Assembly: GCF_000214175.1 (NCBI RefSeq)
Contig: NC_015564.1
Span: 3,782,001 to 3,846,000 of the forward strand
Source of the DNA: Hoyosella subflava DQS3-9A1
GTDB taxonomy: Bacteria; Actinomycetota; Actinomycetes; Mycobacteriales; Mycobacteriaceae
Length of the DNA stretch: 64,000 nt
Direction: 5' to 3'
Under the pieces are notes generated by a model. It was given only the letters and a program-made list of their open reading frames with translations. It was not told the origin of the DNA and ran no database searches. Below are positions 1 to 16,171 of the stretch, in pieces. The position numbers and the translations under genes were made by a program. Each line of letters begins with the position of its first letter. Positions within the stretch are counted from its first letter, which is position 1.

Positions 1-168
1 GCGGATGGTGTTCGCGCCGACGAGGATCGCATCGCAGGATGCCCGAACATCGTCGACCCGGTCGAAGTCGGCGTCATTGGACAGCAGAAGGCGTGGAGCT
101 GTTGCGGTGTCGAGGTAGCCGTCGAGCGACATGCTGCAACTGAGCAGTGTGTAGGGACGTTCAGCCAT
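1..168 (-). CDS. RibD C-terminal/DHFR-like reductase, partial (cut by window edge)
   Basis: Only the first 56 codons are present; the gene runs off the left edge. The visible N-terminus has the RibD-C/dihydrofolate-reductase opening: a beta strand, then SMSLDGYLD, and later a DAILVGANTIR segment matching the NADPH-binding strand of that superfamily. Family members reduce pteridine or flavin precursors with NADPH. The ATG lies eight bases inside the end of the upstream flippase-like gene, so the two are translationally coupled. Its association with a pterin-synthase homologue two genes upstream suggests a pteridine substrate, which is inference. It could instead be a general RibD-C oxidoreductase, since the discriminating C-terminal half is outside the window. 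Confidence 0.8.
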   Translation of the reverse strand, partial: MAERPYTLLSCSMSLDGYLDTATAPRLLLSNDADFDRVDDVRASCDAILVGANTIR

Positions 169-1030
169 TCGCGGACGACCCTTCGAGGAGTTCACCAGAT
201 CTCTGCAGCCGTCGATGTGGGACCAACAACATGATCGCACCGGGAAGTGCTGCTGCGATGGTGAATACGCCAAATGCGGTGGAGACGGCAAGCCCTTGCG
301 CGCCGCCCAGCCCGGCCGCTCCGAACGCCCACACGGCCGCGCCCTCGCGCGGTCCCCAGCCGCCGACATTGACCGGAAGTGCCGCCACCACCAACACCAG
401 CAAGGTCAGGGGCAGAAGGTGCGCCATCGAGACGTCAACTCCAACGGTGTGGGCGGCGAGGACGAAGGTCGCGGCGTGACCCACCACGACGGCTATTGAA
501 GCAAGCACGATTCCCGGCCACGCGCGCGGTACGAGGCCGAACCGCCACACCACCGCAATCAGCCCGACGAGGACAACAGAGACTATGGCAAGCACCGCCA
601 CAGGCACCGGGGACGGCAGAACGGCAAGCGCCACGACGGTCAGCGAAATCAACACGAGTTGACCGGCGACGCGTTCCTCCACGACCGCTCGTCCCGCACG
701 CGGCACAGTGCCGACATCCAAACCATGCCGCACGGCGCGGTGAACGTCGCCGAGTACACCGCCGGGGAGCGCGATATTGAGGAACTGCGACTTGTAGTAG
801 GCGGCAACGGCATCCCGCATGGGAAGTTTGAGGGCGAGGCCGTCTGCCACGAGCCGCCACCGCCACGCTGAACACACCGTGGTGGCGAGGGCGATTGTCG
901 CCGCGATGGCGATCGACGGAATGCTGACCGCCTGAAAGCCCGCCACAAACGGTCCGGTACCGAACTGAACCACCAGTAGGACGAGGATCGCGACAGCGAC
1001 CGCGACCTGTAGGAAAACGCGCACTTTCAT
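161..1030 (-). CDS. Lysylphosphatidylglycerol synthase TM-region (UPF0104/YbhN-type) flippase-like membrane protein
   Basis: A 289-residue, very hydrophobic protein with about seven to eight predicted membrane segments, beginning with [16 protein letters not shown]. The middle carries the FLNIALPGGVLGD and GWGPREGA segments typical of the LPG_synthase_TM (UPF0104) family, which includes the flippase domain of MprF and many glycolipid-cluster proteins. The soluble aminoacyl-transferase domain of MprF is absent. The chosen ATG overlaps the stop of the upstream glycosyltransferase gene as ATGA; an in-frame extension of 14 residues is less likely. Position directly after a GT4 gene suggests it moves a glycosylated product across the membrane, but no substrate can be read from the sequence. 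Confidence 0.85.
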   Translation of the reverse strand: MKVRVFLQVAVAVAILVLLVVQFGTGPFVAGFQAVSIPSIAIAATIALATTVCSAWRWRLVADGLALKLPMRDAVAAYYKSQFLNIALPGGVLGDVHRAVRHGLDVGTVPRAGRAVVEERVAGQLVLISLTVVALAVLPSPVPVAVLAIVSVVLVGLIAVVWRFGLVPRAWPGIVLASIAVVVGHAATFVLAAHTVGVDVSMAHLLPLTLLVLVVAALPVNVGGWGPREGAAVWAFGAAGLGGAQGLAVSTAFGVFTIAAALPGAIMLLVPHRRLQRSGELLEGSSANG

Positions 1031-2040
1031 CCGGCGAGTACCTCGGCAACTCGCTCGGTGGTTGCCTGCCATGTGGGCAGCGACCTCCTGCGGTCCCGTG
1101 CCGCGCTGCGGAGCCGGTGACGGAGCTGAGAATCCTGCAACCAGCGAGCCAATTCTGCGGCCAGTGCGCCGGCGTCACCCAGCGGTACAAACAGGCCAGG
1201 CGAAGTACCGTCAGCGGCGGTACCGACGGCCTCGGGGATGCCGCCCACCTCGGACGCCACCACGGGAACGCCCCGGGCAAGCGCCTCGCAGATCACCATT
1301 CCGTACGTCTCGCTCCGCGATGCCAGCACGAGTAGATCGGCAGTGGCGTACTTCTTCGAAACGGCATCTGTGTCGAGAGCCCCGGTGAAGGTGACCCGAC
1401 CGGCGATCCGCGAGGTGTGCAACTGCTGCCGCAGACGATCGACGAAGACGGGTTCACGATCCAGCGGACCGGCGAGGGTGCAATGCCATGACAGTTCGGC
1501 GATGCGGTCCAGCGCGTCGAGCAGAAGGTCGTGACCCTTGTGTTCGGCGACTGTCGCCACGCACAACAGCTGTCGCCCCTCCGGACTTCCACATGCGAGT
1601 TCAGCGGAGTCCACGCCGGGATGGGCCACGTGCACGCAACCGGGCTCCAGACCGTACTCGGCCAGCAGCTTCTCCCGCGTCCAGCGGCTGGTAGTGACGA
1701 TTGAGTCGGCTACCCAAAGCACTTCGCGCTCAAGCTGGTTCTCGGGGAGCATGTGCACCAGCACAACCAGCCGAAGGCGTCTGGCCGCCGACACAAGAAC
1801 CTGCGGCATGGCAGAGACGATGATGCCGTCGACGAGCACCACCGAGTCGTCCGGAATCTCGGCCGTCACCTCGGTGACTTCAACACCCTCGGGCCGCGGC
1901 CAGCAGCCCGCGACCGGCTGGACGCATACCTGCCACCCCAGCCGGGTGAGCCCCTCCGCGATCCGACGGTCGTAGTAATTGCCGCCGCTCGGACGGGCTG
2001 GATCGTCGAAGCCCTCGGGCACCAGGAGATGAACGGTCAT
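1027..2040 (-). CDS. GT4 family glycosyltransferase (GT-B fold)
   Basis: 337 residues. The N-terminus starts [11 protein letters not shown] with a Gly-rich acceptor loop ([10 protein letters not shown]), as in GT-B enzymes. The C-terminal half has the nucleotide-sugar domain signatures: [17 protein letters not shown], an [13 protein letters not shown] segment with the donor-binding acidic region, and [10 protein letters not shown]. These are hallmarks of GT4 retaining transferases using NDP-sugars in the cytosol. The ATG overlaps the stop of the pterin-synthase homologue as ATGA, so it belongs to the same operon. The acceptor is unknown; the flanking pterin genes make a pteridine glycoside a testable idea, as known for cyanobacterial pterin glycosyltransferases, while a lipid acceptor is the main alternative. 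Confidence 0.9.
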
Positions 2041-2435
2041 GGTGTTCGTTCGTACGACGCCCACGCCACATGCGACTCACGAAGCGTCACCATGATCCCG
2101 GCAAGCCCGGAAGCACTTTCGCCGAGCTCGCCAGCATGAATGCGGTCCACCAGCCGGTCAGCTACGAGCTTCGCGAGCACCTCGGTGGTGGTGTTCGTGC
2201 CCGCCAGGGACGGATCGTCGTCGAGGTTCCGATAGTTCAGGTCCGAGAGCACCGAGTGCAATGCAGTAGTCGCAGCGCCGATATCGACGACGATGCCGTT
2301 CGGGTCGAGTTCGGTCCGGCGGAACGTCGCATCGACGACGTACGTGGCGCCATGCAACCTCTGTGCGGGCCCGAACACCTCGCCACGCAGGCTGTGCGCG
2401 ATCATCATGTGCTCACGCACCGTCACACTGAACAC
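2037..2435 (-). CDS. 6-pyruvoyl-tetrahydropterin synthase/QueD-like protein with altered metal site
   Basis: 132 residues, the usual size for a PTPS/QueD subunit. Recognisable parts are [17 protein letters not shown], the VVDIG strand and the NTTTE segment whose Glu matches the pterin-anchoring residue. Canonical enzymes bind zinc with His16, His31 and His33 (E. coli QueD numbering) in a CxxxHGH pattern. Here His14 and His28 are present, but the third ligand is Ala30 and the usual catalytic Cys position is Ala24. The pterin pocket therefore looks kept while the metal/catalytic site is changed. It overlaps the dehydrogenase gene upstream by 13 bases and the glycosyltransferase downstream by 4. 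It is likely a divergent pterin-processing enzyme rather than queuosine QueD; the exact reaction is unknown. Confidence 0.85.
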
Positions 2436-3418
2436 GGCTTTTCACTCCCTTCGTAGGTGATCACGTGGCACAGGCCTGGCAGCGAACCGAGCTTTGCCAT
2501 CGTTTCGGGCAACTGATCAAACGGCGACGTGCTGCTCAGCAATGCGTCAAAGGCCGGGTCTCGGAGAAGTTCCAGGGCAAGTTTGCGCCGGTCCGTGTTC
2601 GTTCGGCTCGTCCTCCGAACCGGAGCGACCAGGCCGACTTGGCTGGAACGGATTGCCAGCCGCCGCGAATGGAACGCTCCGCCAAACGGGACCTGGACGT
2701 CGGTATCGCCGTACCAGCTCACTTCGATCACTTCCCCCTCGGTGGCCAGCAGCTGCAAAGCCAACCGCAAACCTTCGGCCGTCGCAGTGGCGTGGATGAC
2801 GCGATCCTGTTCCCGAGGGGCGTCGCCGGCCTCCGCGAACTCGACACCCAGCGCTGCCGCGACCTCGGCACGTGAGGTGTCCACATCGACGAGCCTGACC
2901 GAAACTTCGGGAAACTTGGCGAGCAGCCGGGCCACGCAGCAGCCGATCATCCCGGCACCCACGACCGTGACCCGATCACCGATGAGCGGCGGCGCGTCCC
3001 AGAGCACGTTCACCGCCGTCTCCACTGCGCCGGTGAGTGCCGCCCGCGCGGGCGGCACGTCGTCCGGCACGACGACCACGGCGTCGGCGGGGACAACGTA
3101 GCGGGTCTGGTGTGGGTAGAGGCAGAACACCGTGCGACCTACCAGTTCCGCCGGCCCCTCCTCGACTTCCCCGACATTGAGGTAGCCGTACTTCACCGGC
3201 CCTGGGAAGTCCCCGTCCTGAAATGGTGCCCGCATCGCCTGATGCTGGTCGGCCGGGACGCCGCCGCGAAACACCAGCATCTCGGTACCGCGGCTGATCC
3301 CGCTGAACAGAGTTCGGACCAACACCTCGTCGGGATTCACGGGTGGCAGCCGAACGTCGCGGAGCTCGCCCAGCCCCGGGGCACGCACCCAGTAAGCACG
3401 TGCGTCACCCTCAGACAT
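2423..3418 (-). CDS. MDR-superfamily (zinc-type alcohol dehydrogenase-like) oxidoreductase
   Basis: 331 residues. The N-terminal domain carries SGISRGTE where classical zinc alcohol dehydrogenases have the catalytic Cys motif, as in BchC-like members, so a catalytic zinc is doubtful. The Rossmann part shows [15 protein letters not shown] followed by an acidic residue after the second strand (LVDVD), suggesting NAD(H). The start was set at the ATG preceded by GGAGG about five bases away; two upstream in-frame ATGs lack a ribosome site. The gene is 97 bases downstream of the sulfatase-like gene and overlaps the pterin-synthase homologue. It probably performs a redox step on the pathway intermediate; the substrate is not deducible. 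Confidence 0.85.
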
Positions 3419-3515
3419 CGGCCCTCCGAATAGCTTTCGTTCCATGGCCCGTGCACCGTGTATACCACGTCGGTAGGGCCGAAACGTGGGCATTGCTTCG
3501 ACTGAGCGAGCGGCC

Positions 3516-5162
3516 CTACTTGCTAAAAGCGGTCAGGAACCGGTCGCGGAAGGACTCCATCGGCCAGACCGGAGCGTGTGGGCTCGGCCGCAGCCCGGTC
3601 TCCCAACCCCAGTCCGCGATCTGGTCCAGCACGGCCTGGTCGCGGGTGACGATCGTGATCGGGACGTCCAAGCCCTTGTTCTCGCCAATGAGGTAGGTGG
3701 GCGGCTGGTGGTCACCGAGGAGAAAGAGCACCAGGTCGTCGTCGCCGTAGGTCTGCACATAGGAGACCAGCGTGGACAGCGAGTATTCGATGGCTCGGCG
3801 GTAACCGTCGCGCATACGGGCGTTATCGAGCATGACCACCTGCGCGGAAGCGCTTTGCCCGGCGTCGGGCTCGTCGAAGACGGCGCCGTCGCCGACGTCG
3901 TTCCAGTCGCGCAGGTAGGGAATCATATGCCACGGCCAGTGACTGGTCACGAGTGCGATCTCCGCCATCACCGGCTCCCGGCCCGCGCGCTCGCGTTCGG
4001 TGCGTTGGAAGAAGGACAGCGTGTACTGGTCTGGGGCTTGAAAGCCGAAGTAGGTTCGGGATCGGATGTCGAGGCTCTCCTCGTCGTAGATCTGGTCGAA
4101 GCCGTAGTAGTCTCCCGCCGGCCACGGGCCTCGGTTGGCCGGCATGACCGCGACGGTCCGCCAATCGGTGTTGAAGGCGCTCGTGAGCGTGAGCCGGTCG
4201 CTTTCGACGAGCTTGTCGAAGCTGTACTGGTTTGCCACCCGCAGCCCGGACTGCAACGTTGCGTGCGCCAGCCAACTGTCGCCGCCGGATACCGGCGAGG
4301 TGAGGTATCCACTGCGCGAGCCGAATCCGGCCGCATCGAGCTGGCGGGTTCCATCGTCGAGCACCGCCTTGACCGTTGGCGCGAACTCCGGGTCCTCGAG
4401 CGCGATCCGCCCGTAGCTCTCCACAAAGGCGAAGACGACGTCCTTCCCGCGTAGCGCGGCGAGCGGACCCACGACCGAAGTGTCGTCAGCGGCGCTCAAC
4501 TCAGCGTCGAATTGTCGCTGATTCTCAGCGCTCGTCCGCACCTGGTGGCCGGCCTGGTAGGCGAGCTCCACGACGCTCCGCGACGCCACCGGCAACGATG
4601 GCGCGAGCTGCACGGAGAATGTGAGGCACACCAGCCAGATGACGGCCAGTCCGGCGACCGTGCGTCCCGTCGTGCGCCGGTGATTGGTGGCGACGCGCGC
4701 AAGCCGCCCGACAGACAGCGCCAGGACCAGGACCACGGCAATTGCGAGGACGGCGGCCCCGCCCGCGACGGCGAACGCACCGAGCAAGCCGATCTCCCTT
4801 TCGAGCAGGGACACTCCGTTGCCGAGCTGAGGCCAGTCGAAGACCGGATCGAACTGCCTGCCCCGGATACCGGAAAAGGCCATCTGGATGATGCGCAGCA
4901 GGGTCAGCAAGCCGAGCAGGGAGCCTAGGGCGAGAGCCACAATCCGGCGTGGGCGTGCTGGCAGAACGAGCAGAAGCGCGGCAGCGAGCAGTCCCTCCAC
5001 GGGGATCCGCAGTATCGCCAGGGGGGTTAGGTGCTGGATGTCGGGAGGTGCGATGAGTGCGAGGAAGACCAGCAGGGCAGCGAGGGTGGTGAGGAGCCAT
5101 TCGGGGACACGACGGCGCGTGGTTCGCTCCCCCGCGTGCCGCACTGTCTGCGATCGATCCAT
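3516..5162 (-). CDS. Membrane-anchored sulfatase/LtaS-like alkaline phosphatase superfamily protein
   Basis: About 548 residues. Four to five hydrophobic helices occupy roughly residues 20-185, then a large extracytoplasmic catalytic domain follows. That domain has DVVFAFVESYGR (metal-binding Glu), SGGDSWLAHAT where the Ser/Thr nucleophile is expected, SHWPWHMIP and LLGDHQPP, the pattern of LtaS/OpgB-type phosphotransferases and sulfatases. No Cys/Ser formylglycine sulfatase signature (CxPxR) is visible, so a phospho-transfer or hydrolytic role on an exported molecule is more likely than sulfate release. The start codon is uncertain because no strong ribosome site is visible; a GTG two codons upstream is possible. 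It is the first gene of the pterin/glycosyl cassette. The 244 bases between it and the tRNA terminator hold no convincing gene. Confidence 0.8.
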   Translation of the reverse strand: MDRSQTVRHAGERTTRRRVPEWLLTTLAALLVFLALIAPPDIQHLTPLAILRIPVEGLLAAALLLVLPARPRRIVALALGSLLGLLTLLRIIQMAFSGIRGRQFDPVFDWPQLGNGVSLLEREIGLLGAFAVAGGAAVLAIAVVLVLALSVGRLARVATNHRRTTGRTVAGLAVIWLVCLTFSVQLAPSLPVASRSVVELAYQAGHQVRTSAENQRQFDAELSAADDTSVVGPLAALRGKDVVFAFVESYGRIALEDPEFAPTVKAVLDDGTRQLDAAGFGSRSGYLTSPVSGGDSWLAHATLQSGLRVANQYSFDKLVESDRLTLTSAFNTDWRTVAVMPANRGPWPAGDYYGFDQIYDEESLDIRSRTYFGFQAPDQYTLSFFQRTERERAGREPVMAEIALVTSHWPWHMIPYLRDWNDVGDGAVFDEPDAGQSASAQVVMLDNARMRDGYRRAIEYSLSTLVSYVQTYGDDDLVLFLLGDHQPPTYLIGENKGLDVPITIVTRDQAVLDQIADWGWETGLRPSPHAPVWPMESFRDRFLTAFSK

Positions 5163-5406
5163 GTGCACCCTGACCCCGAACGGACAATTACTGCGCGGCT
5201 CTAAAACGCGACGGCCTGATGATCCTCGCGCTGCGAACCCAGCCGAGAGTTCTGCCGACGACGAGCTCCACTTCGTCACCTTCGGTCAGCGTCCCCCACA
5301 ACTCGGGCTCGACACAAGGGAATTGCCGAGGACTACGGCGACTTCACGAGCATTGTCGGCAATGCGTCACCGGCGCTCGCGAGCGTCGAGAAGGCAATCG
5401 AGCACG

Positions 5407-5441
5407 AAAAAACCGCTGAGTGCCATTCGGACTCAGCGGTT
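5407..5441 (-). terminator. Intrinsic terminator after tRNA-Ala
   Basis: A perfect 11-bp stem (5411-5421 with 5431-5441, 9-nt loop) is followed on the minus strand by a run of T residues (5410-5407). It lies eight bases past the tRNA-Ala 3' end and separates it from the sulfatase gene. Confidence 0.9.
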
Positions 5442-5449
5442 ATCGAAAG

Positions 5450-5522
5450 TGGAGCTAAGGGGACTCGAACCCCTGACCCCCACACTGCCAGTGTGGTGCG
5501 CTACCAGCTGCGCCATAGCCCC
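5450..5522 (-). tRNA. tRNA-Ala (anticodon GGC)
   Basis: A 73-nt cloverleaf on the minus strand begins GGGGCTATGGCGCAG. The anticodon stem CCACA/TGTGG closes loop CTGGCAG, so the anticodon is GGC. The T arm reads GGGGTTCGAGTCCCC. The acceptor GGGGCTA pairs with TAGCTCC through one G-T pair, with discriminator A. CCA is not encoded. Confidence 0.97.
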
Positions 5523-5597
5523 GTTCACATCAGCCTATCGGGCCGGTGCTCGACCGAAATTACACCACGTCGAGCAGTTCCGGCAAATCTGCTGGGG

Positions 5598-6332
5598 TCA
5601 CTCGCCTATCAGGTTGTTCAGCCAGTGCCGGTTGTTCCAGTCGACGATTTCGCCGTCCGCGACCACGGTCGGCGTTCCCTGGCCGCCCGCGGCCTCCATG
5701 GCCGCGCGAGCTAGGTCGGCGTGCTCGCGGGCGGCGTCTTCCCGCGCCCCCGTCGTAATGCAGTCAACTGCGGCATCGTCGGCGCCCGCCTCGCGCGCGA
5801 CGTCCGCGAGTTCCGCATTCGTGCGGTCCTCTCCGCTTCGCGGCTTCGCCTCATAGAGCGCAGCGTGGAACGCGCTGAACGCTGCACCATTGCCCGTTTC
5901 GGCCACACATTCAGCTGCCGCCGCGGCGCGAGTGGAATACGTGCCGCTGCCCGATGCGGGGTCGAGGAAGTTCATCGTGTTGTACTCGACCAAGATTTCG
6001 CCCTCGTCGACCACCCGCGCGATGTGCTGGCCGAACAGCCGCTCGAAGGACTGGCACCCTTCACACATATGGTCTTCGAATATGGCGATCGAGCGGGGCG
6101 CGTCCGGGAAGCCGAGCACGATGACACCGTCGTCGGCGATCGCCACGGGCGCTTCACGGACTGTTCCATACCCCTCGTCTACGGGTTCACTTGTGCGCTG
6201 CTGCCACAGCACCATCCCGACTACAGCGATTGCGGCAATGACGACAGCGATCGCACCGAGGATGTACGTCGCTGAGTTGGAAGGTTTCTCGGGAGTGTAG
6301 GCGCTCTTGCTCGGCGTCTTCCTCGCGCTCAC
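5598..6332 (-). CDS. DsbA/thioredoxin-like membrane-anchored thiol-disulfide oxidoreductase
   Basis: 244 residues. An N-terminal signal anchor spans about residues 23-43, after a basic cytosolic tail. The extracytoplasmic part is a Thioredoxin_4/DsbA-like domain with the redox motif CEGC (about residue 91, in FEDHMCEGCQSF) and a cis-proline loop GTPTVVADG near the C-terminus. Such proteins, common in actinobacteria, introduce or isomerise disulfides in exported proteins. Two further cysteines (ECVAE and DCITT) sit in the helical insert as in DsbA homologues. It begins four bases before the reading frame of the neighbouring transporter ends, but the intact transporter frame ends 58 bases away. 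Confidence is high for the fold, moderate for the physiological partner. Confidence 0.9.
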   Translation of the reverse strand: MSARKTPSKSAYTPEKPSNSATYILGAIAVVIAAIAVVGMVLWQQRTSEPVDEGYGTVREAPVAIADDGVIVLGFPDAPRSIAIFEDHMCEGCQSFERLFGQHIARVVDEGEILVEYNTMNFLDPASGSGTYSTRAAAAAECVAETGNGAAFSAFHAALYEAKPRSGEDRTNAELADVAREAGADDAAVDCITTGAREDAAREHADLARAAMEAAGGQGTPTVVADGEIVDWNNRHWLNNLIGE

Positions 6333-6390
6333 TGTCGTCCTTCCGCTGTTCGTTGAGGGGCGGTACTAGCGTGCCATAGCGCACTGACAA

Positions 6391-7597
6391 TCAGATGAGG
6401 AGCCCGACCATCGTTGCGCTGATGAAGCTCACGAGCGTTGCACCGTACAGCAGCCGGAGACCGAATCTTGCGATCGTGTCGCCCTGCGCCAGCGCGAGCC
6501 CTTTGACCGCTCCCGCGATGATTCCGATGGACGCGAAGTTCGCGAACGAAACCAGGAACACTGCCACGATCGCGTAGGCGCGGTCCGACAACTCGTATTC
6601 CCCCGCCGCGATTTGTGTCATCGCCACGAACTCGTTCGTCACGAGTTTCGTTGCCATCAAACTCCCTGCGTCCACTATCTCCGATGGCGGAACCCCCGTC
6701 AGGAACGCCAGCGGCGCGAACACGTAGCCCATCACCTGCTGGAATGTCACACCGAAGATTCCGTTGAAGACACCGTTCACCATCGCGATCAGCGCGACGA
6801 AGCCGATCAGCATCGCAGCAACGGTGAATCGCCACGCGGAAACCGTCCCAGATGTATTCGGTGAGCATCTCGAAGAACGACCGGTGCCGCGCGTCGGAGA
6901 AGACGGCCACGTCCTCGGAGGGTTCGAGGTCATACGGATTGATCAGCGTCACCACGATGAAGATGCCGAAGAAGTTCAGCGCGATCGCCGTGACCACATA
7001 TTGCGGGTCGAGGAGCACCATGTACGAGCCCATGATCGAGGCGGAGACCGTCGACATTGCCGCGGCCGCCAGCGTGTAAAGCCGTCGTTCATTGAGGTGG
7101 TGCAGCTGGTTCTTCAGCGCAATGAAGACCTCAGACTGGCCTAGAAGCAAGGACGCCGATGCGCCGAATGATTCGAGCTTGCCAAGGCCGTTGATCTTTC
7201 CGACAGCGAGACCCAGATACCGGATCACGACATGCAAGAGCCTCGACCATTCGAGGATGCCGATAATCGCCGAGATGAACACGATCGGCATGAGCACTGC
7301 CATGAAGAACGCTGGGCTGAGGCCGTTCGTCGCGTCTGGATCACCAGCGAGGCCACCGAACACAAATGACGTTCCCTCGAACGCGAACTCGAGGAGCCGG
7401 CTGAAGCCACTGGCTATCCCGTCGACGACGGTCTGGCCAACTGCGGTTCGGATAAGGAAGAAACCGAGAACCACCTGGATCGCAAGCATGATGGCCACGT
7501 ATTTGAGCCGTTTGAGCGCCAGCTTCCGGTCATAGCTGGCAGCCCAGGCCAGCGTCATGAAAACGGCGAGACCAGCTATCCCTACGGCGTAGTGCAT
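6391..7597 (-). pseudogene. NupC-family concentrative nucleoside transporter, frameshifted
   Basis: The reading frame from the ATG at 7597 encodes the N-terminal two thirds of a CNT nucleoside transporter, through GQSEVFIALKNQL and MSTVSASIMGSY to TEYIWDGFRVA. It then passes out of frame near 6835. The rest (FTVAAMLIGFVALIAMVNG through VTNEFVAMTQI to VSFISATMVGLLI) is in the next frame and ends at 6391. The span is 1207 bases, 402 codons plus one, so a single extra base around the GCGATTC at about 6830-6838 explains it; 402 codons is the normal family length. CNT proteins import nucleosides with Na+ or H+. AAGGGG precedes the ATG. Since both halves are well preserved, a sequencing error is as likely as a recent mutation. 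Confidence 0.85.
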
Positions 7598-7702
7598 ACG
7601 ACCCCTTGAGGTTTGTGCTGCCTCGCGGTGGTGACACCGCGAAAAGATCACTTTCGCCAATGGTGGGGCAGCCCGCAACTCGAACGAGGGTGAACGGAGA
7701 TA

Positions 7703-7739: not shown

Positions 7740-8119
7740 TGGTGGAGCTGCCGGGAATTGAACCCGGGTCCTCCGCAGTGTTGATGGGGCTTCTCCGTGC
7801 GCAGTCCGTTGTGTCTCTACTCGGATCTCACAGTCTCACGGACGAGCTGTGATGACGATCCCAGTCACTGTTTGATGTCCCATCTACCCCCGTGACCGGG
7901 GTAAACGGTTTGTCCCTCTAGTCGACGCCAGGGTCCGGGCCGAGGGCCTTCCCGGTCTGACGAGCCATCTGCCTAACTAAGCTGCGAGAGCGAAGTCAGA
8001 CTGGCTGCGCTGAGCATTGTCGGCGCTTATTGGTTTGCAACGACGCTTAACGGTGGTCTCTTGCCTGCACCGGCACGCTTCCCCCATCGCGACGAACAGA
8101 GTCGAAACCGATCAGCCCC
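7740..8119 (-). ncRNA. ssrA: tmRNA (ssrA)
   Basis: A 380-nt transcript whose ends form a tRNA-Ala-like domain: 5' GGGGCTG pairs with 3' CAGCTCC, followed by an encoded ACCA. The T arm reads GGGTTCAATTCCC. The internal message, near 7980-8030 on the minus strand, encodes the degradation tag ADNAQRSQSDFALAA followed by TAG, with the ALAA ending recognised by ClpXP in this phylum. It rescues ribosomes stalled on broken mRNAs together with SmpB, whose gene lies 1.2 kb upstream in the same orientation. The typical one-piece architecture is intact. The 179 bases between its 5' end and the DUF559 remnant hold its promoter and no gene that I can see. Confidence 0.97.
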
Positions 8120-14779: not shown

Positions 14780-16171
14780 ATGAGTAAGAAGAACTCCTCA
14801 GGCGGCGCGTCAAGGCGCTCCACCTCCGCTGTGGGCCTGAACCCGGTGAAGCGCGACGCGATCGGCACCGCAATGCGTGTCCTGACCTCGCTCACCGGTT
14901 CAGAGCTGGCAGAAAAGTACAACCTCCGCAAACCAATCGATCGGGTCGCATACGAAGCCACAAAGACCGGCTTCCGCACCCTCGGCACCGCAACTCGCAC
15001 CTTCAAGAAGGTCTCGGGCGGCGGCAAGCCGAAGCGCCTCCCCGATTCCGAGGCGAAGAAGAAGGGTCTCTACGACCTGACCTTCAGCGACGAACAACAG
15101 ATGATCGTCGAGACGGTTTCCGAGTTCGCGGAGGAAATCCTTCGCCCCGCCGCGTCCGACGCGGACAGCGCTTCGGAAGCACCAGCCGATCTCATCAAGC
15201 GTTCGGCCGAACTCGGGATCACGCTGATCAACGTGCCCGAAGACTTCGAAGGTGCTGCATCTGAGCGCGGGGCGATCACGAACGCACTGGTCGCCGAGGC
15301 GCTTGCGCATGGCGACATGGGGCTTGCCCTGCCGATTCTCGCGCCGAGCGGTTTTGCCGTGGCGCTCACTCAGTACGGCAACGATGCGCAGCAGCAGACT
15401 TACCTGCCGGCATTCGCCGGTGAGAACGTCCCCGGGGCAGTCGTCGCCGTGAACGAGCCACGAGCGCTGTTCAACCCGTTCGCACTCGAGACGAAGGCAA
15501 ACCGCGCTGCGGGCGGTTACACCCTGCAGGGTGTGAAGAGCCTGGTGCCCATCGCGTCGTCCGCCGAACTCTTCCTCGTCGCTGCCGAACTCGGCGGCAA
15601 GCCCGCATTCTTCATCGTGGAATCCGATGCGACCGGGCTGGTTGTCGAAGCTGACCCGAGCATGGGGCTGCGCGCCGCTGGTATCGGGCGCCTGAACCTC
15701 GATAACGTCGTGGTTCCGGAATCCGCGCTGCTAGGTGATGGTGACCCCGCGAGCCGCGCCAAGGACTATGAGGACATCATTCAGCTCTCACGCCTCGGCT
15801 GGTCATCACTCGCGTGCGGCACCAGCAAGGCCGTGCTTGACTACGTGATTCCTTACGTCAACGAGCGTGAGGCGTTTGGCGAGCCAATCAGCCACCGGCA
15901 GGGCGTCGCGTTCATGGTTGCGAATATCGGCATCGAACTTGATGGCATGCGGCTAGTGACCTGGCGCGGCGCGTCCCGCGCTGAGCAGGGCGTCTCGTTC
16001 GCCCGTGAAGCTGCCCTTGCTCGCCGACTCACGTCCGAAAAGGGCATGCAGATCGGCCTCGACGGTGTCCAGCTTCTCGGTGGCCACGGTTTCACCAAGG
16101 AACACCCCGTCGAACGCTGGTACCGCGACCTTCGGGCCGTTGGTATCGCTGAAGGCGTCGTCGTCATCTAG
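14780..16171 (+). CDS. fadE24: Acyl-CoA dehydrogenase, FadE24-like
   Basis: 463 residues. A basic N-terminal extension of about 95 residues (to KKGLYDLTFSDEQQMIVE) is followed by the acyl-CoA dehydrogenase fold: helical N-domain, beta domain around residues 200-310, and C-domain with the LLGGHGFTKEHPVERWYRDLR signature. It is FAD-dependent and oxidises acyl-CoA at the alpha-beta bond, probably as a hetero-oligomer with the product of fadE23, 28 bases downstream. The extension and tandem pairing are typical of FadE24 (Rv3139), a pair reported as isoniazid-induced in M. tuberculosis. GGAG stands a few bases before the ATG. Substrate unknown. Confidence 0.88.
   Translation: MSKKNSSGGASRRSTSAVGLNPVKRDAIGTAMRVLTSLTGSELAEKYNLRKPIDRVAYEATKTGFRTLGTATRTFKKVSGGGKPKRLPDSEAKKKGLYDLTFSDEQQMIVETVSEFAEEILRPAASDADSASEAPADLIKRSAELGITLINVPEDFEGAASERGAITNALVAEALAHGDMGLALPILAPSGFAVALTQYGNDAQQQTYLPAFAGENVPGAVVAVNEPRALFNPFALETKANRAAGGYTLQGVKSLVPIASSAELFLVAAELGGKPAFFIVESDATGLVVEADPSMGLRAAGIGRLNLDNVVVPESALLGDGDPASRAKDYEDIIQLSRLGWSSLACGTSKAVLDYVIPYVNEREAFGEPISHRQGVAFMVANIGIELDGMRLVTWRGASRAEQGVSFAREAALARRLTSEKGMQIGLDGVQLLGGHGFTKEHPVERWYRDLRAVGIAEGVVVI

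Follow-up and report, generated by a model that had tools for sequence, protein, structure and literature searches.

What is made by the six closely packed minus-strand genes, pterin-type enzymes beside a glycosyltransferase and membrane proteins, at the left edge of the window, i.e., of the whole 64,000-nucleotide stretch of Hoyosella subflava DQS3-9A1 analyzed here (C3:3782001-3846000 of a 4.86 Mb genome)? The initial annotation had proposed that a pterin is made or reduced, glycosylated, moved across the membrane and further modified outside, and had left the source of the pterin open. At the level of protein families, the gene content fits this proposal, and the relatives of the cluster point to GTP cyclohydrolase II (GCHII) or its equivalents as that source.

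The reading preferred here, which in our estimate has an even chance of being right, is that DARPP (2,5-diamino-6-ribosylamino-4(3H)-pyrimidinone 5'-phosphate) is turned by the cluster into a pterin-type compound that is methylated, glycosylated, probably linked to a lipid, and exported. Its reactions are given conditionally throughout, as we infer them from the observed protein families and their conserved neighborhood.

Extent and conservation of the cluster

All six minus-strand open reading frames (ORFs) were confirmed, running from 5279 to the left edge of the window (window base 1 is base 15001 of the extended locus L002), and further genes were found past this edge:

3516..5279, minus strand: LtaS/alkaline-phosphatase-superfamily (sulfatase-like) membrane enzyme, a predicted extracytoplasmic transferase; 587 aa, or 548 aa from the ATG at 5162
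2423..3493, minus strand: BchC-like MDR dehydrogenase, apparently without a catalytic zinc; 356 aa
2037..2435, minus strand: PTPS-IV T-fold protein with the FGPAQ signature, homologue of the solved SCO6650 (PDB 3D7J); 132 aa
1027..2064, minus strand: GT4 glycosyltransferase (Pfam GT group 1, 4e-30); 345 aa
161..1072, minus strand: UPF0104/LPG_synthase_TM flippase-like membrane protein (Pfam LPG_synthase_TM, 3e-24); 303 aa
1..168, minus strand: RibD_C reductase gene, only its start in the window; 229 aa from the ATG, with its end at L002:14479, 522 bases beyond the left edge
L002:13751-14575, same strand as the RibD_C gene: class I methyltransferase gene, left of the window
L002:12852-13754, same strand as the RibD_C gene: second class I methyltransferase gene, left of the window
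L002:12196-12897, plus strand: CDP-alcohol phosphatidyltransferase gene, convergent, overlapping the end of the second methyltransferase gene by 46 bases

The close packing described in the initial annotation was found throughout, neighbors as called overlapping by 8–46 bases, except that the LtaS-like and MDR genes are 22 bases apart. ORFs were called mechanically, with some starts too long and some shadow frames with weak scores. Further Pfam matches of the window proteins were PTPS (8e-25) and RibD_C (7e-41). Of the genes that had been sought past the left edge, the two methyltransferases were present, but no GTP cyclohydrolase was found among the cluster genes. A small DUF1905 gene comes after the CDP-alcohol phosphatidyltransferase gene, outside the window. 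A promoter and terminator scan of 3400-5600 returned only one promoter-like match, within the LtaS-like gene.

All ten genes, DUF1905 included, occur in identical order in the two closest genomes compared (L140 and L141). The ratio of nonsynonymous to synonymous divergence (dN/dS) was 0.11–0.40 in 20 of 20 comparisons, at low divergence (dS down to 0.01 for PTPS). In L141, the aligned MDR stretch contains one stop codon, and the open frame there starts a few residues further in. The presence and integrity of the six window genes are confirmed, as is purifying selection on them, and judging from dN/dS and the kept order the genes look like working ones.

The distribution of the cluster was assessed by a genome-contig scan with the window PTPS protein, from which the best 80 of at least 545 PTPS relatives were taken together with their flanks. 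These 80 loci lean to close relatives (PTPS identity 71–89%); 28 of them are shorter than 20 kb, so that genes at their ends may be missed, and 52 are at least 20 kb long. Families were counted at the locus level at 100 bits or more, with models built from the same loci, while RibD was counted by hand in four loci with GCHII–RibD fusions, and the CDP-alcohol transferase likewise in its two fusion loci.

The MDR family was found in 79 of the 80 loci (51 of the 52 long ones), GT4 in 77 (50), UPF0104 in 71 (51), the CDP-alcohol transferase in 69 (50) and a methyltransferase family, MTx, in 68 (46). Further partners were GCHII (63 and 44 loci, respectively), RibD (38 and 25), a creatininase-family protein (36 and 27) and the LtaS-like protein (24 and 19). 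Co-occurrence of the families in other genomes was the test that the initial annotation had set for itself; the four-family core of MDR, PTPS, GT4 and UPF0104 was found jointly in 70 of the 80 loci (50 of the long ones), and the exact six-family set in 20 (17 of the long ones). The cluster extends past what the window alone reveals, and its distribution is much wider.

A chance neighborhood of unrelated genes, for which the odd mix of families and nothing more could be adduced, was rejected as extremely improbable, the MDR gene adjoining PTPS in 79 of 80 loci and the sole exception (L083) being an orphan PTPS with no cassette partner in its stretch. Orphan PTPS-IV-like genes were also observed in two Streptomyces plasmids (L022 and L024), with no MDR or other cassette partner in the stretch; their surroundings include genes for sigma factor, cupin and BTAD-type regulator proteins. 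The three orphans are 61–72% identical.

Three Rhizobiaceae plasmids, one of them from an Agrobacterium tumefaciens strain, carry the sulfatase, UPF0104, CDP-alcohol transferase, GCHII, MDR, PTPS, GT4, methyltransferase and RibD genes together. In these three clusters, a gene annotated as cytochrome b lies beside RibD (L116:10991-11530, L117:10011-10544 and L120:10055-10582), as it does in Thiodictyon; the one scanned, that of L117, is a b561 by Pfam, and this cytochrome is a possible redox partner of the cluster product. Other or shorter sets were found in Thiodictyon (which also has an LtaS-like gene), Methylosinus, Microbacterium, Rhodobacteraceae SC52 and Palleronia. The set of Haloarcula is a related one that includes GTP cyclohydrolase IIa, and the PTPS there shows HSHH where the others have HGA.

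A search for neighbors shared by at least eight loci yielded nine groups, from which no further general partner emerged; on visual inspection, several were probable shadow frames, and the others included an ABC ATPase, a LacI-type regulator and an inositol-monophosphatase-like protein. The distribution of the cluster is patchy. In a sample of 396 genomes from the phylum, 36 had a match to the MDR protein at a self-chosen threshold of E ≤ 1e-40 (nine at 1e-100 or below), and PTPS-IV was present in 11 of the 61 nearest relatives. A set with at least 545 PTPS relatives, on chromosomes and plasmids of several phyla and with no product found in the open-licence literature, matters for primary or specialized metabolism.

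Soluble enzymes and the proposed entry from GTP

In an alignment of 87 PTPS rows, no catalytic Cys was found at the place before HGH at which active PTPS and QueD carry it in the motifs CxxxHGH or CxxxxxHGH (PMC5445326). The first two zinc His residues are kept in 87 of 87 rows, and the third is replaced by Ala in 86. Glu85 and Glu120 are both present in all 87 rows, Glu120 standing at the place of the usual pterin-anchoring Glu. The window protein had been described as a divergent PTPS/QueD homologue; its substrate-anchoring Glu is kept, but as neither the catalytic Cys nor the third His of the zinc site is present, an ordinary active PTPS or QueD was rejected.

The FGPAQ motif occurs in the window protein and in 85 of the 87 rows overall (exceptions L021 and L076). 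It is the signature of PTPS-IV, published as cluster-node 62 with 561 sequences and with PF00925 and PF01872 as neighbors (PMC5445326; statements from sources cited here by PMC number refer to the portions of those sources at hand). A corresponding neighborhood was found here, GCHII and RibD accompanying PTPS in 63 and 38 of the 80 loci, respectively; in the window genome, RibD is adjacent and GCHII lies elsewhere only. By these sequence traits, the PTPS homologue is assigned to the published PTPS-IV subfamily. Its best solved relative is Streptomyces coelicolor SCO6650 (PDB 3D7J, 197 bits), in which reportedly neither zinc, nor the catalytic triad, nor PTPS activity was found, and the residues for a pterin-like ligand were kept.

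All three cluster RibD proteins scanned (window, L037 and L043) consist of the reductase domain alone, with no deaminase domain. It follows from this domain content that the 2-amino group should stay, which would set the pathway apart from those of riboflavin and F420; the product should keep the 2-amino group of guanine. Of the traits of a riboflavin operon, the deaminase domain was absent from these three proteins, and no lumazine synthase is annotated in the plasmid regions examined, no profile for it having been run on the loci.

Among family models, the archaeal DARPP-reductase one gave the highest score with the window RibD (132 bits, below its cut-off). The best PDB match of this protein was 5xv5, a 'Conserved protein' from an archaeal reductase family (115 bits), followed by Rv2671 at 67 bits and bacterial bifunctional RibD proteins at 45 bits or less. 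Four loci carry a GCHII–RibD_C fusion: three are from Pseudonocardia, and the fourth, in which the fusion gene lies ~5 kb away from the PTPS genes, is from a Mycobacterium metagenome-assembled genome; both fusion domains were confirmed by Pfam in L043, the one scanned.

The cassette-type RibD was searched for in 16 genomes, three of which (those of L025, L026 and L063) contributed rows to the model, and 14 of them gave one match each, scoring 236 bits or more. Among the 11 genomes without RibD at the locus, 10 have one such match elsewhere. In G453 (L100), with no RibD at the locus, the match falls into two pieces of 139 and 96 bits, and G458 (L074), with a weak RibD at the locus, gave a match of 111 bits only. 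In the 61 nearest genomes, RibD at a self-chosen E ≤ 1e-50 was present in 10 of the 11 with PTPS-IV versus 4 of the 50 without (Fisher 1.1e-7, kinship ignored).

RibD_C and DHFR share a common fold, and the DHFR-like Rv2671, a precedent for a dihydropterin reductase, is a weaker PDB match of the window RibD. The RibD homologue might accordingly be read as a dihydropterin reductase, with PTPS-IV acting on products of GTP cyclohydrolase I and GCHII as a mere helper. This was considered decidedly unlikely in view of the RibD_C–GCHII fusions, the nearness of the window RibD to the archaeal DARPP-reductase model and the presence of GCHII in 63 of 80 loci; in addition, the annotations of the three Rhizobiaceae plasmids show GCHII only, no GTP cyclohydrolase I profile having been run on the loci.

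A part in F420 biosynthesis is most improbable. GCHII and RibD-type steps are common to the F420 precursor pathway, but F420 needs a deaminated pyrimidine, and the cluster RibD has no deaminase domain. PTPS-IV has been named as involved in archaeal F420 on the basis of unpublished data (PMC5041015), a remark that concerns archaea. CofH exceeded the cut-off in 9 of the 11 PTPS-IV genomes among the 61 relatives versus 38 of the 50 without; of the PTPS-IV genomes, G056 (100% complete) gave a CofH match of 8.6e-5 only, and G059 (97%) gave none.

With DARPP as the starting compound of the preferred reading, attention turns to the GCHII proteins of the clusters. The position corresponding to Tyr105 of E. 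coli GCHII was compared in 68 proteins; 31 have Tyr there, 20 have Met and 15 have His, while Cys and Ser occur once each. Tyr is kept in 31 of the 32 loci without a creatininase gene in the stretch examined and absent in 36 of 36 loci with one (Met 20, His 15, Cys 1). The Ser case is a diverged fusion protein in L057, without creatininase, so that 36 of 37 Tyr-less GCHII proteins accompany a creatininase. The Creatininase domain was recognized at 218 bits in the L017 protein, the one scanned.

The Met-type SCO6655 is said to halt at the formylated pyrimidine, as attributed to Spoonamore in 2006. A creatininase-family enzyme of Sinorhizobium deformylates the formyl intermediate to DARPP (PMC9478397). 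The cluster creatininase appears as if it supplied a deformylation that the Tyr-less GCHII may lack, and the two arrangements can be read as one supply line to DARPP in a one-enzyme and a two-enzyme version.

GCHII and creatininase are both missing from the window cluster. In the host genome, RibD_C and GCHII have their best matches at C3:1948694-1951121, the RibAB (L105) is of the Tyr type and can supply DARPP, and the sole creatininase-family match of the genome lies away from the cluster. A second GCHII-like protein of the host (L106, C3:2394293-2394724) was also noted, with 841 aa comprising GTP_CH_N, a GCHII domain (60 bits) and DUF1688.

Proposed route and the membrane half

In the first step of the proposed route, GTP would be converted to DARPP by the cluster GCHII, or by a Tyr-less GCHII together with the creatininase-family deformylase, activities predicted from the families present; in the window genome, the host RibAB would be used instead. 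RibD_C would then reduce the ribosyl group (C1' of DARPP) to ribityl with the 2-amino group retained. In the third and least certain step, the BchC-like MDR enzyme may oxidize a side-chain hydroxyl while PTPS-IV holds the pyrimidine; if oxidation took place at C2', the 5-amino group would close the ring to give 7,8-dihydroneopterin 3'-phosphate, the monophosphate of the GTP cyclohydrolase I product. Methylation and glycosylation by GT4 would follow. Finally, the CDP-alcohol phosphatidyltransferase would join the polyol phosphate to a lipid, UPF0104 would flip the product, and the LtaS-like enzyme would modify it outside. After ring closure, the side chain would look like glycerol 3-phosphate and would suit a PgsA/AIPS-like transferase as acceptor. 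Rhodobacteraceae SC52, with its short set of MDR, PTPS, methyltransferase and RibD, fits the order reduce, oxidize, cyclize, methylate.

The proposed product of the first three steps, dihydroneopterin 3'-phosphate, would equally suit an alternative entry to folate and ordinary pterins in place of GTP cyclohydrolase I. Such a role is very unlikely: the window genome, which alone was examined in this respect, has GTP cyclohydrolase I (251 bits), and the glycosyl- and lipid-type genes of the cluster would be superfluous for folate. The type IB family PF02649 was found in 1 of the 11 PTPS-IV genomes.

For the oxidation step, the window MDR protein matched no Pfam MDR family at 0.01, and its best NCBIfam match was BchC (5e-15, below the cut-off). 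The motifs SGxSRGTE and KYGY are at least 90% conserved in 85 aligned rows, and the usual zinc-ligand pattern is absent from the window protein.

In the CDP-alcohol transferase, D104, D107, G108, A111, R112, G121, D125 and D129 are invariant in 19 rows; the full DGxxAR...G...D...D catalytic motif of CDP-alcohol phosphatidyltransferases is kept. The protein of the window genome matched Pfam at 1e-16 and pgsA at 39 bits versus a cut-off of 109. Across the family, NCBIfam matches were weak and mainly to lipid head-group synthases, namely archaetidylinositol phosphate synthase (19 of 19), pssA (17), pgsA (6) and PIPSynth (3), and the PDB gave short weak matches of mixed type. The transferase is fused to the LtaS-like protein in L063 and L066, from which it follows that the two probably share one substrate. 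The presence of this transferase points to a lipid-linked product, with substrates predicted from weak family matches. The two kinds of fusion, GCHII–RibD and CDP-alcohol transferase–LtaS-like, link steps inside the soluble half and the membrane half, respectively.

The window LtaS-like protein matched the Sulfatase Pfam family at 0.006, below the cut-off; at 0.01, this family was matched by 14 of 16 aligned rows, the window one included, the best at 2e-9. In the 16-row alignment, E287, H447 and S335 are invariant and D523 and H524 at least 90% conserved, E, D and H corresponding to the metal site; by this pattern, Ser335 may act as the nucleophile in place of Thr. A profile search with the family gave no PDB match.

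The same pathway could lead to a soluble exported pterin glycoside resembling limipterin or cyanopterin, the CDP-alcohol transferase and LtaS-like enzyme then adding a phospho-alcohol with no lipid anchor. Bacteria are known that have pterin glycosides and a pteridine glycosyltransferase (PMC5683033, PMC13259868), and in Rhodobacteraceae SC52 the core of MDR, PTPS, methyltransferase and RibD occurs without membrane genes in the examined stretch. We nevertheless consider a soluble product fairly unlikely, given the CDP-alcohol phosphatidyltransferase in 50 of 52 long loci, its matches mainly to lipid head-group synthases and its fusion to the LtaS-like protein in two loci.

Several observations weigh against the exported, lipid-linked and glycosylated pterin preferred here. 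Two loci (L019 and L023) are without membrane genes in the stretch examined, and L023 and L080 are without GT4, so that neither lipid linkage nor glycosylation would be universal. Only 24 of the 80 loci have the LtaS-like gene, and at position 330, occupied by Thr in at least 90% of 26 rows, the window protein carries Val. The CDP-alcohol family matches are weak (best E 4e-7) and of the serine type in 17 of 19. For the oxidation of an alcohol by a zinc-less MDR enzyme, the precedent is BchC.

The methyltransferases of the window cluster are a further point of this kind, MT2 being only remotely like the recurrent MTx (14.5 bits) and MT1 not at all. At a threshold of 40 bits, L063 alone among the 80 loci contains an MT1 relative, and at 100 bits no methyltransferase is found in L025 and L026, the nearest clusters from outside the genus. 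MTx is frequent but the window enzymes are different, so the methylation step would be common and the enzyme variable. MT2 has a 42% relative in Haloarcula.

As for the entry from GTP, a PTPS+MDR tree shows three creatininase changes and four residue changes, with only 2–3 independent pairs; no pair is opposite, one is without difference in some pairings, and a sign test on these numbers cannot reach significance. No product, mutant or assay of the pathway was found in the open-licence literature.

A bolder form of the preferred reading, which we regard as rather improbable, would make the product a new class of membrane lipid, in which a redox-active pterin formed by a GCHII reduce-oxidize-cyclize route, by-passing GTP cyclohydrolase I, is linked by its side-chain phosphate to a phospholipid, given a sugar, flipped and completed outside, in actinobacteria, in alphaproteobacteria (where a cytochrome b561-type gene lies alongside) and, in a related version, in haloarchaea. 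If true, the cluster would combine a new pathway to a pterin with a route for its export.

Known systems and surroundings of the cluster

The SCO6650–SCO6655 region of S. coelicolor shares with the loci studied here the PTPS-IV homologue, the FGPAQ motif and the Tyr-less GCHII found in Streptomyces clusters. In contrast to it, the window cluster has RibD, two methyltransferases and the LtaS-like enzyme, and has no GCHII and no creatininase. In work of 2006 and 2008, Spoonamore and Bandarian reportedly characterized single proteins, among them the GCHII variant SCO6655, but not the pathway. SCO6655 appears in a table of PMC2853524 and SCO6652 in an expression table of PMC3610822.

The AGeNNT account of the PTPS-IV neighborhood shares FGPAQ and the PF00925 and PF01872 neighbors with the present loci (PMC5445326). 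In the portion of that account at hand, no MDR, GT4, CDP-alcohol transferase, UPF0104, LtaS-like protein or creatininase is named and no function is proposed for PTPS-IV, and PF00925 is labeled cyclohydrolase I. The initial annotation had called the cassette uncharacterized, which holds for its product as far as literature was found, but not for PTPS-IV with its GCHII/RibD neighborhood, already in print there. No description of the whole cluster was found in the open-licence literature. New here are the match between absence of the GCHII Tyr and presence of a creatininase, the RibD without a deaminase domain and the fusions of two kinds, while PTPS-IV and two of its neighbors were already known. 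These new features make the chemistry testable step by step.

The early pathway of riboflavin and F420 (GCHII or ArfA with ArfB/BrbF, and RibD; PMC9478397) likewise leads from GTP to DARPP in one-enzyme and two-enzyme versions and includes a RibD-type reduction. In contrast, the cluster has no deaminase domain, no other gene of the window cluster matches a riboflavin or F420 family, and the cluster continues with MDR, PTPS-IV, methyltransferase, GT4 and membrane enzymes. A 7-deazapurine pathway was rejected, no QueE- or QueC-type gene being annotated in the plasmid regions, where no profile was run.

The routes to bacterial pterin glycosides begin with GTP cyclohydrolase I together with an active PTPS, and we know of no flippase, CDP-alcohol transferase or LtaS-like partner in these systems. 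What they have in common with the proposed product is its type, a glycosylated pterin (Chlorobium CtPGT, cyanopterin; PMC5683033, PMC13259868). According to a 2026 review, no pterin efflux system has been identified and the membrane crossing of pterins is unexplained; a periplasmic pterin signal in Agrobacterium tumefaciens is described there as well (PMC13259868, in the portion at hand). The present cluster couples pterin-type enzymes to a flippase-like protein, also on an A. tumefaciens plasmid.

In the surroundings of the cluster, genes for nitrile-hydratase-like alpha and beta subunits, recognized by eye from the translation, adjoin it at L002:9600-11213. A nucleoside-transporter-like gene, also assigned by eye, at 6329-7678 on the minus strand of the window is split into two frames and forms one frame in L140 and L141, which indicates either a frameshift or an error in sequencing. 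A tRNA-Ala gene (5449-5522) and a tmRNA gene (7740-8119) lie immediately upstream of the cluster.

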